From Ignatzschineria sp. RMDPL8A (GTDB lineage: Bacteria; Pseudomonadota; Gammaproteobacteria; Cardiobacteriales; Wohlfahrtiimonadaceae), in contig NZ_JAPPWA010000002.1 of NCBI RefSeq assembly GCF_029815055.1, positions 682,001-746,000 of the forward strand: a stretch of DNA of 64,000 nt, read 5' to 3'. This document shows, in pieces, positions 25,722-46,803 of this stretch. Position 1 is the first letter of the stretch, and each line of letters opens with the position of its first letter. The notes beneath the pieces are model-generated. The model worked only from the letters and a program-made list of their open reading frames with translations, had not been told where the DNA came from and searched no databases. The position numbers were made by a program, and so were the translations under genes.

Positions 25722-28629
25722 GTTACCCGCCGAATAGGCGGCTTAGAAAGTTATAGATCGAGGCTCTGAAAGCTTCTGCAAGTTACCCGCCGAATAGGCG
25801 GCTTAGAAAAATCCCAACACCTAAAGCATCGTTATCAGCTTGTTACCCGCCGAATAGGCGGCTTAGAAATCAAATAACTCTAGTAAATTTTTCATTTTAT
25901 TGTTACCCGCCGAATAGGCGGCTTAGAAAGAAAAGATTGATGGACTGCCGTGAACGAGTAAGTTACCCGCCGAATAGGCGGCTTAGAAACTACGCCTAAA
26001 TACTCTTTTAGCTCCTGCTACGTTACCCGCCGAATAGGCGGCTTAGAAATCAAGCGTAAAAGTAACAGGGGAAGCCTTACGGTTACCCGCCGAATAGGCG
26101 GCTTAGAAATTCACCAAAAGACGGGGACGATATATGGGTATGTTACCCGCCGAATAGGCGGCTTAGAAATTTACCCTTTACATGCCAATCCTTTTACATG
26201 CGTTACCCGCCGAATAGGCGGCTTAGAAAGTTAAATTGGTATCTGTAAATTCAGTGCTAATGTTACCCGCCGAATAGGCGGCTTAGAAATACCCAAATCC
26301 ATGAACCGCATAATTCGACTTGTTACCCGCCGAATAGGCGGCTTAGAAAAGGTTCAGGCAAGACATATGAAGCCGTTTTTAGTTACCCGCCGAATAGGCG
26401 GCTTAGAAATCTGTAAGTGAGAGATGGGGGGATTATGAAACGTTACCCGCCGAATAGGCGGCTTAGAAACATGATATTTATTTCACTTTCATTGATCGAA
26501 GGTTACCCGCCGAATAGGCGGCTTAGAAATTTTGGGCATTAAAAATGCCGCCATACCATTCGTTACCCGCCGAATAGGCGGCTTAGAAATTCGAGCTTAA
26601 TAATGCCCTGTTGAATTTGCAGTTACCCGCCGAATAGGCGGCTTAGAAACGTCGCCTCACTTCATGCTTATTGGTTAACTCGTTACCCGCCGAATAGGCG
26701 GCTTAGAAATAACGGTCTACGCATAGTAACATCCCGTTGATGTTACCCGCCGAATAGGCGGCTTAGAAATTTCTCAATCGTTCCGTCTAACTTGACGATG
26801 AGTTACCCGCCGAATAGGCGGCTTAGAAACTCCCCATCTTTTCGTTGATAGGTATCAATGAGTTACCCGCCGAATAGGCGGCTTAGAAAATTAATCCAAG
26901 AAGCTAGAAAAGAGATTATAGGTTACCCGCCGAATAGGCGGCTTAGAAAAATCGCTTTGGTATCGTTATGTTCTTGCCAACGTTACCCGCCGAATAGGCG
27001 GCTTAGAAACACACGAACCATAGTCCGCATCACAAACTCCGGTTACCCGCCGAATAGGCGGCTTAGAAAAACATTTAACAACATTCCATTTTTAACAGTG
27101 TGTTACCCGCCGAATAGGCGGCTTAGAAAATAAAGACTGGTCGACCGAGATACGTTGCAAGGTTACCCGCCGAATAGGCGGCTTAGAAATTAATTAAAAG
27201 CGATCCGAGCATTAGCGCTATGTTACCCGCCGAATAGGCGGCTTAGAAATTTTGAGCCATTATCTCGATCAACCATCGATCGTTACCCGCCGAATAGGCG
27301 GCTTAGAAATTGCGCCCAATCTTCATAGAGTGAAATGATATGTTACCCGCCGAATAGGCGGCTTAGAAATGCAAGCCGGATGGGGTTTTTTTTGACTCCA
27401 TGTTACCCGCCGAATAGGCGGCTTAGAAAAATTATCAAAGTCATCCCAATCAAAATTAACTGTTACCCGCCGAATAGGCGGCTTAGAAATAACAAATAAT
27501 CTTTGCAGAAGCTTTCAGAGCGTTACCCGCCGAATAGGCGGCTTAGAAAATACTCTTCACCGCACTGGGTACATTGATACAGTTACCCGCCGAATAGGCG
27601 GCTTAGAAAAGACTCGACATTCTCAATTTTAACCGCTGAATGTTACCCGCCGAATAGGCGGCTTAGAAACGTTAAAGCTTGAAACGTAAAAAACCCCCGA
27701 AGTTACCCGCCGAATAGGCGGCTTAGAAATAAGCAGTTAATCTCAGCTTATCTAAACGGCCGTTACCCGCCGAATAGGCGGCTTAGAAACCGCCAGCCTT
27801 CCATGAAACTCTTCAGGATGGGTTACCCGCCGAATAGGCGGCTTAGAAACATGGCGATCAATCACAAAACCCATGCAATCAGTTACCCGCCGAATAGGCG
27901 GCTTAGAAAATAAAGCGGTTCTTTTTTTCGTAAAAGCAATAGTTACCCGCCGAATAGGCGGCTTAGAAAGCACTTCATTACAGCTTTGGAGCAATCCAAT
28001 CGTTACCCGCCGAATAGGCGGCTTAGAAATTTAGTTATCAAGTAATCTCGATTCGGTAAGAGTTACCCGCCGAATAGGCGGCTTAGAAATTGATGGCCTG
28101 TATTAATTGACTTGATATACTGTTACCCGCCGAATAGGCGGCTTAGAAATTATCGAGCGTCATATTCAATCTCTCTGTTCTGTTACCCGCCGAATAGGCG
28201 GCTTAGAAATTGAGTCGTGCGCGAACGGAACGGCGCTGTATGTTACCCGCCGAATAGGCGGCTTAGAAATTCAGAAATGAGAACTAATACAACTTCAGAC
28301 AGTTACCCGCCGAATAGGCGGCTTAGAAAACTGGACGGGTAAGCTCGAAACAGAAAAGAAGGTTACCCGCCGAATAGGCGGCTTAGAAATTCGAAACCAA
28401 ACAGCTCCATAAACTCAAGCGGTTACCCGCCGAATAGGCGGCTTAGAAATTAATCGGAGTTGATTTAGAACCATCTATTTTGTTACCCGCCGAATAGGCG
28501 GCTTAGAAAAAAGGTCAAAACAGTTACCCGTTTATGGATATGTTACCCGCCGAATAGGCGGCTTAGAAAGTTGAAATTTGAACACTACCGCTAGAATTAT
28601 TGTTACCCGCCGAATAGGCGGTTTATGGA
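25722..28629 (+). CRISPR. Type I-F CRISPR array: 49 repeats, 48 spacers
   Basis: The 28-bp repeat consists of GTTACCCGCCGAATAGGCGG followed by the handle CTTAGAAA. Repeats begin at 25722 and recur every 60 bp without exception, so every spacer is 32 bp. 48 repeats are identical; the last (28602-28629) keeps the first 20 bases but ends TTTATGGA, marking the old, trailer end. The palindrome CCGCC/GGCGG is the Csy4 hairpin. No spacer matches elsewhere in the window by eye. Spacers 1 and 30 overlap on opposite strands. Apparent reading frames inside (for example 26858-27133) are repeat artefacts. Confidence 0.99.
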
Positions 28630-43851: not shown

Positions 43852-43879
43852 TTGTCAACGTAAAAAAAATCATTATAAT
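43852..43879 (+). promoter_or_regulatory. Promoter of the leader-amidohydrolase unit
   Basis: TTGTCA (43852-43857) - 16 bp - TATAAT (43874-43879). Predicted start at about 43886, giving a leader of about 230 nt before the amidohydrolase start codon. Confidence 0.8.
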
Positions 43880-43923
43880 AATGATCGTTTTGTTTAGATG
43901 AACGATAAGGAATTGAGAAAAAA

Positions 43924-44025
43924 ATGAAGCCAGCCGCTTTTTTTTTGTCACAACAACGACGCGACATGGTGATGACCATCGCTCTTTCTCTTTTCCGTTT
44001 TTATAGAAAATCCTCCTTTTATTAA
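43924..44025 (+). CDS. 33-residue leader peptide ahead of the amidohydrolase
   Basis: The frame starts MKPAAFFLSQQRRDMVM and ends FRFYRKSSFY. AAGGA lies 12 nt upstream. Its last codons and stop (44023-44025) fall inside the terminator hairpin at 44007-44042, and the message before the hairpin is U-rich (CTTTCTCTTTTCCGTTTTTAT). This is the arrangement of the pyrBI leader, where RNA polymerase pausing at U-rich sequence lets the ribosome block the terminator when UTP is low. No single amino acid is enriched as in trp or his leaders. Confidence 0.55.
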   Translation: MKPAAFFLSQQRRDMVMTIALSLFRFYRKSSFY

Positions 44026-44042
44026 TAGGGGGATTTTTTTTT
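44007..44042 (+). terminator. Attenuator terminator before the amidohydrolase
   Basis: AATCCTCC / GGGGGATT stem (one U-G pair), loop of 11 nt containing the leader stop codon, then a run of nine or more T. It lies 73 bp before the amidohydrolase start. Confidence 0.8.
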
Positions 44043-44115
44043 GCCCAGAGAATTTACAAACCGATTATCAATCGACTTTTCAACCCCGATGAGTTGCAAA
44101 AAAAAGGAAAAAATT

Positions 44116-45458: not shown

Positions 45459-45521
45459 ATGAACAACAACGTTTTTTCTTTTAACTTTTGGTGGCAAATC
45501 TCTCGGGAGCGGGAGATATAA
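45459..45521 (+). CDS. trpL: trp operon leader peptide
   Basis: 20 residues: MNNNVFSFNFWWQISREREI, with two adjacent Trp codons (45489-45494) and a stop at 45519-45521. The sequence covering the second half (ATCTCTC ... GGGAGAT) forms the 1:2 pause hairpin, and a classic terminator follows at 45566. This is ribosome-mediated attenuation by charged tRNA-Trp. Confidence 0.9.
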   Translation: MNNNVFSFNFWWQISREREI

Positions 45522-45565
45522 CTGTGCACGTCTAAAAAAGAAGAAACGACACGTATATCGTCAAT

Positions 45566-45592
45566 AGCCCGCTGAATCAGCGGGCTTTTTTA
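45566..45592 (+). terminator. trp attenuator
   Basis: AGCCCGCT / AGCGGGCT, 8-bp perfect GC-rich stem, 5-nt loop, T6. It terminates when ribosomes pass the tandem Trp codons without stalling. Confidence 0.92.
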
Positions 45593-45798
45593 TGCCCAAA
45601 ATAAAGTAAACAGAGCAGCAACCCCCTCGGAAGAGACAAAAATTTAATCAAATCGGGCCCAAAATGCCCATCAAATCGAATGTAAGTCCTTTGCTTGAAC
45701 ACCAAGGGCAACCAAACAACCCAGCTTAATTAGACAACCATTAAACAGACAACCCAACGCACCACTTGTACGCAGAGAGATAAAAAAGGAATCGAATC
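45593..45798 (+). other. Long C-rich, G-poor segment between attenuator and trpD
   Basis: 206 bp of transcribed leader without a gene. About 45699-45770 has roughly 24 C to 8 G in 72 nt, with CAACCA/ACAACC motifs, a composition typical of Rho-loading (rut) sites or unstructured leaders. Confidence 0.4.
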
Positions 45799-46803
45799 AT
45801 GAAAGCAATTTTTAATAAACTCTACCAATCAGAAAGTCTCTTTTTAGGCGAGAGCCAAACGTTGTTTTCAAGCATCGCTCGTGGTGAGCTGACGCACTCT
45901 CAACTTGCCGCAGCACTCATCTGTATGAAGCTTCGCGGTGAAACGCCTGAAGAGATCGCTGGCGCTGCCCAATCTTTTTTAGAAGTGGTCAAACCCTTTC
46001 CCCGTCCTGATTATGCGTTTGCTGATATCGTCGGTACCGGCGGTGATGGGGCAAACACTGTCAATATCTCAACAGCGAGTGCCCTTGTTGCGGCAAGCTG
46101 TGGTGTAAAAGTTGCCAAACATGGAAATCGCTCCGTATCGAGCCTCACAGGATCATCGGACCTTTTAGCAAAACTTGGAGTGAATCTCGCAGCAACGCCG
46201 AATGAATCACGCAAAATGATGGACGAGCACAATATCTGCTTTCTCTTTGCACCGCAATATCATGAAGGCTTTAAACATGCGGCGCCCGTTCGTACAGAGC
46301 TTGGCACGCGGACGCTCTTTAATGTGCTCGGGCCCCTTGTGAACCCGGCACGTCCTCCTTATGCGTTGATTGGTGTTTATCACGAAGATCTCGTCCGTCC
46401 CATCGCGGAAACGCTCAATCTTCTCGGCTATAAACGTGCAATGGTGGTGCATGGTAGCGGGGTTGATGAGGTAGCGCTTCATGGGCCAACGAAAGTGGCG
46501 GAACTTAATGGCGGTAAGATCGATGAATATGAGGTGGTGCCACAAGATTTTGGTTTAAATAGCCATCCGCTCTCTATGTTGGTCGGCGGTACGCCCGATG
46601 AAAACCGTGCCTCGCTCCTTAAAATGCTTGAGGGACGAGCACCAGAAGCCCATGAACATGCCGTTGCCATCAATGTGGCGATGCTGTTAAAACTCTTTGG
46701 CAATGAAGATTTAAAAGAGAATGCCGCCACTGCGTTAGCCTCGATTCGAGAAGGGCGTGCGCTCGCACTTTTAAATACCATTACCGGAAAAGAGGTGCAA
46801 TAA
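45799..46803 (+). CDS. trpD: Anthranilate phosphoribosyltransferase
   Basis: 334 residues. Phosphate/PRPP loop [17 protein letters not shown] and [17 protein letters not shown] are intact, as are [10 protein letters not shown] and the [14 protein letters not shown] block. It transfers phosphoribosyl to anthranilate. Unlike E. coli it has no TrpG glutaminase domain fused in front. First structural gene after the attenuator, 1 bp before trpCF. Confidence 0.95.

Follow-up and report, generated by a model that had tools for sequence, protein, structure and literature searches.

The locus poses two questions: what kind of leader precedes its PRK06886-family amidohydrolase gene, and what the encoded enzyme does. 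We addressed both in the window, that is, the whole stretch of 64,000 nucleotides analysed, and in related genomes. A first-pass annotation had described a strong promoter, a 33-codon leader ORF whose stop falls inside a U-tailed terminator hairpin, and a U-rich segment just ahead of the hairpin, and each of these elements was recovered (Table 1). The promoter ranks top among 11 candidates in 4 kb and its −10 region is kept in relatives, the leader stop sits in the terminator loop (44018–44026) with an in-frame TAG directly after it, and the U-rich segment corresponds to a pyrimidine-rich tract that comes immediately 3′ of a pause-like hairpin. Compared with 200 dinucleotide shuffles, the leader folds more stably (z −3.9). 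In the window alone, overlap between ORF and hairpin could arise by chance (29.5% of shuffles show it, and 3% show it together with an SD-like motif), and terminator-like sites in the region are likewise not above chance (5 found versus 4.3 expected). It is recurrence in relatives, and not the window sequence by itself, that lifts the arrangement above chance, and the leader of promoter, ORF, pyrimidine-rich tract and U-tailed hairpin is confirmed as real. Close by, a Trp leader (RF00513, 43.7 bits) occupies positions 45483–45593 ahead of a trpD-like gene at 45799 and is an ordinary amino-acid attenuator; further off, the window carries a CRISPR array at 25722–28569 with 48 repeats of 28 bases and a period of 60.

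Table 1. Positions in the window of the leader elements and of the gene they precede.
Feature	Position	Strand	Basis
Sigma-70-type promoter, TTGTCA-16-TATAAT	43852–43879	+	11/12 consensus matches
Small 5′ hairpin, ATCGTT..AACGAT	43884–43906	+	−5.4 kcal/mol, predicted fold
Predicted transcript start, GTTTTG	43887–43892	+	predicted from sequence
AAGGA, possible ribosome binding site of leader ORF	43907–43911	+	sequence
Leader ORF, 33 codons, ATG at 43924, stop TAA at 44023–44025	43924–44025	+	sequence
Pause-like hairpin 5′ of pyrimidine-rich tract	43958–43984	+	−10 kcal/mol; putative pausing
Pyrimidine-rich tract UCUUUCUCUUUUCCGUUUUUA, putative UTP-sensitive pause region	43983–44003	+	sequence inspection
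Intrinsic terminator (attenuator), stem 44005–44017/44027–44039, T9 run 44034–44042	44005–44042	+	predicted fold and sequence
AAGGA, ribosome binding site of amidohydrolase gene	44104–44108	+	sequence
PRK06886-family amidohydrolase, 349 aa	44116–45165	+	469.5 bits, cut-off 340

Orthologues of the amidohydrolase were found in Ignatzschineria (82–83% identity), in Orbaceae (74–84% over the matched part), in one Saccharibacteria record (44%), in family f172 (57–62%, with the gene in 56 of 61 genomes) and in family f36 (39–41%, 7 of 42 genomes). We term f172 Pasteurellaceae-like because its loci are enriched in AAGTGCGGT and ACAAGCGGT (28 and 38 copies in 169 kb, versus 0 and 2 copies across the 362 kb of the remaining loci), which we take to be uptake-sequence cores. 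Promoter-like −10 boxes, a short ATG ORF and a hairpin recur before the orthologues even though the upstream genes differ. A terminator lies at most 230 nt upstream of the gene in 75 of 83 rows, a tally in which some rows are duplicates, the window counts twice and E. coli pyrB is one entry; it is present in 18/18 rows of the window's genus and Ignatzschineria, in 31/31 Orbaceae rows, in the single Saccharibacteria row, before E. coli pyrB and in 24 of 29 Pasteurellaceae-like rows (one of the 24 being doubtful, so that about 5–6 are without), and it is missing from all three f36 rows. As a background, a terminator scored under a slightly stricter energy limit also lies upstream of 41 out of 224 other genes in the examined loci whose gap measures 150 nt or more. 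One Pasteurellaceae-like subgroup (L070, L121 and L126–L129) has no terminator but a long, conserved hairpin within which the leader ATG lies. In Orbaceae (L034–L063) a strongly conserved AT-rich block (TCT..AAAATAATACTTTAAC..TTTCATTTATTTA; for example, about 3713–3765 in L034) lies ahead of the promoter and is perhaps a regulator site, and the Orbaceae ESL0721 records (L046, L047, L064, L067 and L068) hold several near-identical copies of the locus, some of them frame-broken, which are probably an assembly duplication.

The first-pass reading carried with it the expectation that overlap between leader and terminator would be conserved, and this expectation was borne out. Among 38 leaders selected for diversity and for having a hairpin (hand-picked in five cases), an ATG ORF of at least 12 codons reaches the hairpin in 33, versus 8.2 expected from dinucleotide shuffles, and overlap together with an SD-like motif is found in 20, versus 0.63 expected. 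In the remaining five (L007, L060, L109, L110 and L114) the ORF ends at most about 15 nt before the hairpin; the control L065 has no leader ORF reaching the hairpin. Relatedness among the leaders makes the formal probabilities, 2e-18 for overlap and 2e-27 for overlap with the SD-like motif, too small, and they are rough only, since the leaders were in addition chosen for a hairpin that in five was picked by hand. The Pasteurellaceae-like leaders have a first hairpin and a T-run ahead of the terminator, and an R/Q-G-L/V-A core encoded by that first hairpin lies in the leader frame, 17 to 32 codons from the ATG, in 15 of the 25 leaders of this family with a recognised ATG. A pyrimidine-rich tract between pause-like hairpin and terminator was seen by inspection in the window and in the Pasteurellaceae-like leaders. 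The leader anatomy thus looks to be a real feature that distant relatives share, recurring in Ignatzschineria, Orbaceae and the Pasteurellaceae-like family.

The window leader shares with that of E. coli pyrBI (leader ORF pyrL) a promoter, a leader ORF overlapping a T-run terminator, a short distance to the gene and a pyrimidine-rich tract upstream of the terminator, with CCGTTTTT in both tracts by an eye comparison of GCCGTTTTTCTTCC in pyrL with UCUUUCUCUUUUCCGUUUUUA in the window. Reading of the E. coli sequence gives, in turn, a leader ORF, a CCGTTTTTCTTCC tract, a hairpin with T8 and the gene, an order that is also the window's, and in both systems the content of the peptide appears not to be the signal. 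The pyrBI attenuator is described as lying within a 135-bp leader gene in which pausing couples translation to transcription (PMC4824070). The two leaders differ in that pyrL runs past its hairpin, whereas the window leader and several relatives stop inside the hairpin loop, and in that the gene behind the window leader, which starts 73 nt after the T-run, is neither pyrB nor pyrI; it belongs to PRK06886, and no PyrB over cut-off is present in the genome.

The predicted transcript start adds a further likeness to a pyrimidine gene in part of the set. GTTT(T)G occurs 6–7 nt after the −10 box in 11/11 rows of the window's genus and Ignatzschineria (GTTTG at 6 nt in Ignatzschineria), and these are the first bases of E. 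coli carAB P1, a promoter subject to UTP-sensitive reiterative transcription whose transcript begins GUUUGC and slips at high UTP (PMC6245113). The same bases are absent from most Orbaceae and Pasteurellaceae-like leaders (present in 4/31 and 1/28 rows, respectively), and because of this rarity in other clades we treat the putative start as a side feature.

What distinguishes the possible kinds of leader is that the overlap is conserved and the peptide is not: beyond the core of the Pasteurellaceae-like family, leader peptides show no conservation, which fits pyrBI-type control by ribosome position over amino-acid-specific attenuation. Classical attenuation through control codons in the leader could draw on the Arg codons of the window's genus and Ignatzschineria (7.8% of residues), but Arg falls to 2.7% in Orbaceae leaders and 4.6% in the Pasteurellaceae-like set, no residue is enriched in all three clades and there is no run of one codon, so that we regard this mechanism as highly improbable; the Phe_leader model gave 20.6 bits on the window leader versus a threshold of 55. 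That promoter and terminator instead form an independent small RNA gene, or that the hairpin merely terminates nadK and the ORF is accidental, would accord with a transcript of about 155 nt and a weak Rfam hit for an sRNA (32.9 bits versus a threshold of 60). Yet the transcript sequence is not conserved while the leader frame is maintained, and upstream genes vary among relatives, whereas the enzyme keeps its promoter, ORF and hairpin; because the unit travels with the gene, we hold such an origin to be very unlikely. A PyrR-binding attenuator (RF00515) scored 24.2 bits versus a gathering score of 54, and a riboswitch reading of the leader was unsupported in the search. Pyrimidine-linked, pyrBI-type attenuation is accordingly our best reading of the leader, with UTP as the presumed signal.

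The enzyme itself had been taken for a cytosine-deaminase-like salvage enzyme. Although the window protein passes the model of its family (NF005365), the sole name given to PRK06886 is 'hypothetical protein', and belonging to it says nothing about function. An AlphaFold model (pLDDT 78.4) has cytosine deaminases and AtzC, N-isopropylammelide isopropylaminohydrolase, as its nearest solved folds (TM 0.70–0.78), and residues were compared using a map of the CodA and AtzC active sites (PMC4577212) and an alignment of 81 family members drawn from 91 loci, of which 7 gave no family ORF and 3 with fewer than 300 aa were left out, several duplicate genomes remaining. Deamination of cytosine or a related ring is favoured by the solved homologues, the best of which are cytosine deaminases at about 20% identity (20–27% for CodA), and by metal ligands that are shared with CodA and invariant across the 81 rows. 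Key residues of CodA are nevertheless replaced: all 81 rows have Gln in place of the catalytic Glu217, Leu in place of Gln156 and Asn in place of Asp314, and the Thr66 position is Arg in 78 and Lys in 3. The window protein scored 85.8 bits with the CodA model NF006685 (cut-off 483) and 89.6 bits with NF005748 (cut-off 438), a genuine CodA (697.6 bits) is encoded elsewhere in the same genome, and salvage would leave PyrD without PyrB and PyrC unexplained. A salvage deaminase is on these grounds unlikely. The residue and genome evidence, the latter placing the gene where PyrB and PyrC are missing, speaks against that part of the first-pass annotation, while its pyrBI-like logic on a pyrimidine-linked gene is supported by the conserved overlap, the unconserved peptide and the genomic link to pyrimidines. 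Comparison with AtzC, an amine-releasing hydrolase, is closer at some positions: its Lys65, His219, Gln160, Asn304 and His249 correspond to Arg45, Gln200, Leu138, Asn297 and His229 in the window protein, so that 3 of 5 are the same or similar and the full AtzC set is absent.

The link to pyrimidines comes from the distribution of the gene. PyrB, both PyrC types, PyrD, ArgG, ArgH and CarA were searched for in 78 genomes, a chosen set that includes all f172 genomes found without the gene. PyrB over cut-off was found in none of the 59 gene-bearing genomes and in 14 of the 19 gene-free ones (Fisher 1e-11 for exclusion across the 78), and the gene and PyrB swap within family f1 (g1 and g4 versus g2 and g3) and within f36. 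PyrC is present in only 2 of the 59, both Orbaceae (Orbus, G497, and Zophobihabitans, G500), and neither PyrB nor PyrC scored over cut-off in the 39 f172 genomes tested. Class-2 PyrD is retained in 53 of the 59; the six without it are Orbaceae, all with only weak DHODH-like matches in its place. A PyrE was noted in one f172 genome, and a PyrF likewise in one. All five gene-free genomes that lack PyrB belong to f172; four of these also lack PyrD and OTC, and the fifth, G454, has PyrD and OTC with neither the gene nor PyrB/PyrC. A diverged PyrB may have been missed by the model in gene-bearing genomes.

Further associations point the same way. In f36 (L162–L165) the enzyme is fused at its N-terminus to the C-terminal domain of CarB (43 bits), giving proteins of 470–500 aa in all, and in CarB this domain is where UMP acts. 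UMP is reported to inhibit the carbamoyl-phosphate synthase that contains CarB (PMC6245113). In Orbus, the gene next to the orthologue is DHODH-like (80.5 bits, below cut-off). Two Pasteurellaceae, A. succinogenes and M. succiniciproducens, are reported to grow in defined medium, and the requirements listed for them do not include pyrimidines (PMC3091790). That the gene occurs in genomes lacking PyrB and PyrC argues for a part in de novo synthesis and not in salvage, and the PyrB/PyrC exclusion, the retention of PyrD and the CarB-domain fusion together suggest that the enzyme most likely feeds de novo pyrimidine synthesis above PyrD. It is an uncharacterised enzyme that probably has no salvage role and substitutes for two textbook steps of pyrimidine synthesis.

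Arginine genes are common in the gene-bearing genomes: OTC is present in 57, ArgG in 58 and ArgH in 57 of the 59. The OTC counts rest on matches to the PyrB model that stay below its cut-off. Of four such proteins checked, three exceed the OTC cut-off and the fourth narrowly misses it; most genomes have one or two carbamoyltransferases. CarA is present in 42 of the 59 and absent from 17, including the window's own genome, as a bare count. Several irregular loci were also observed. The window's genome encodes a second OTC-like protein (L223, 7675–8742; 272.1 bits versus the OTC cut-off of 280.85), and several f172 genomes without CarA have OTC adjoining a carbamate-kinase-like gene (one checked). 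In Ignatzschineria G003 (L234, 7963–11699) CarA is cut to 171 aa, its first domain only, directly before a whole CarB, which suggests an ammonia-fed carbamoyl-phosphate synthase. In the 1.6-Mb genome G400 the orthologue (L171, 5465–6451) is broken by an in-frame stop, PyrB and PyrC are also missing, and CarA, OTC and PyrD remain. Orbus (L049; G497:C3:150543-152562) has PyrC beside a second DHODH-like gene and no PyrB, a pair that is possibly catabolic.

Which reaction the enzyme would catalyse can be framed as a choice between replacing PyrC alone and replacing PyrB and PyrC together. A non-orthologous dihydroorotase would act on N-carbamoyl-aspartate made by an unrecognised aspartate carbamoyltransferase or by a side activity of OTC. 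Its amidohydrolase fold, the absence of PyrC from 57 of the 59 genomes and the CarB regulatory domain fused in f36 would suit this role, but the dihydroorotase models TIGR00856 and TIGR00857 are not among the families matching the window protein at E up to 1 (nor was either matched in the window's genome), carbamoyltransferases are few, and a simple replacement is weakened because PyrB is also missing and CarA is in part; we find this role somewhat doubtful. The other chemistry, which we put forward tentatively as a specific, AtzC-like version of the explanation favoured below, would start from argininosuccinate, in which the aspartate skeleton, the carbamoyl carbon and one nitrogen are already present. 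In its six-membered cyclic form the whole dihydroorotate ring is in place, the sole difference from dihydroorotate being the ornithine attached to C2, and AtzC is an enzyme that removes an amine from a ring carbon. By splitting the bond between guanidine carbon and ornithine, the enzyme would yield dihydroorotate and ornithine, so that OTC and ArgG, with ornithine as carrier, would replace PyrB and PyrC. Argininosuccinate could come from citrulline and aspartate (ArgG) or from arginine and fumarate (ArgH reversed), and no carbamoyl-phosphate synthase of the cell's own would be needed when arginine or citrulline is available. Argininosuccinate anhydrides have been measured by mass, in a passage that gives no ring size (PMC11016166).

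The argininosuccinate chemistry would explain the joint loss of PyrB and PyrC, and, if citrulline or arginine is available, would make sense of the CarA-free genomes, that of the window included, a loss that a route from carbamoyl phosphate through PyrB would not readily tolerate. It agrees with the frequency of OTC and ArgG and, on the structural side, with the AtzC type at two positions where CodA and AtzC differ (Arg/Lys for Lys65 and Asn for Asn304). Against it, AtzC His219 and Gln160 are replaced in the family, Saccharibacteria G502 has the gene with no OTC, ArgG or ArgH, and ArgG and ArgH discriminate little because they are nearly universal in the set (Fisher 0.43 and 1.0). It appears to be the most economical chemistry that we found for the enzyme.

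Taking leader and enzyme together, the explanation we favour, and judge fairly probable, is that a pyrBI-type, translation-coupled attenuator controls an amidohydrolase that takes over from PyrB and PyrC. With ample UTP, RNA polymerase would outrun the leader ribosome, the terminator hairpin would form and transcription would stop. When UTP is short, polymerase would pause in the pyrimidine-rich tract, allowing the ribosome on the 33-codon leader to catch up and cover the 5′ arm of the hairpin, and read-through into the amidohydrolase gene would follow. The enzyme would then supply PyrD with dihydroorotate or its immediate precursor.

Searches of the open-licence literature listed no report of such an attenuator or of such a pathway. 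An argininosuccinate-based pyrimidine pathway that bypasses PyrB and PyrC under a pyrBI-type attenuator would be previously undescribed; we consider it conceivable but less likely than not. Entire bacterial groups, among them apparently a large part of the Pasteurellaceae as well as the bee-gut Orbaceae, retain the late pyrimidine genes without the PyrB and PyrC that would feed them, and the present analysis offers one candidate gene for that gap, with a regulatory signature in its support. If this is true, an enzyme family so far labelled as no more than hypothetical proteins performs a core reaction of nucleotide synthesis, and the routes to arginine and to pyrimidines may have an intermediate in common.
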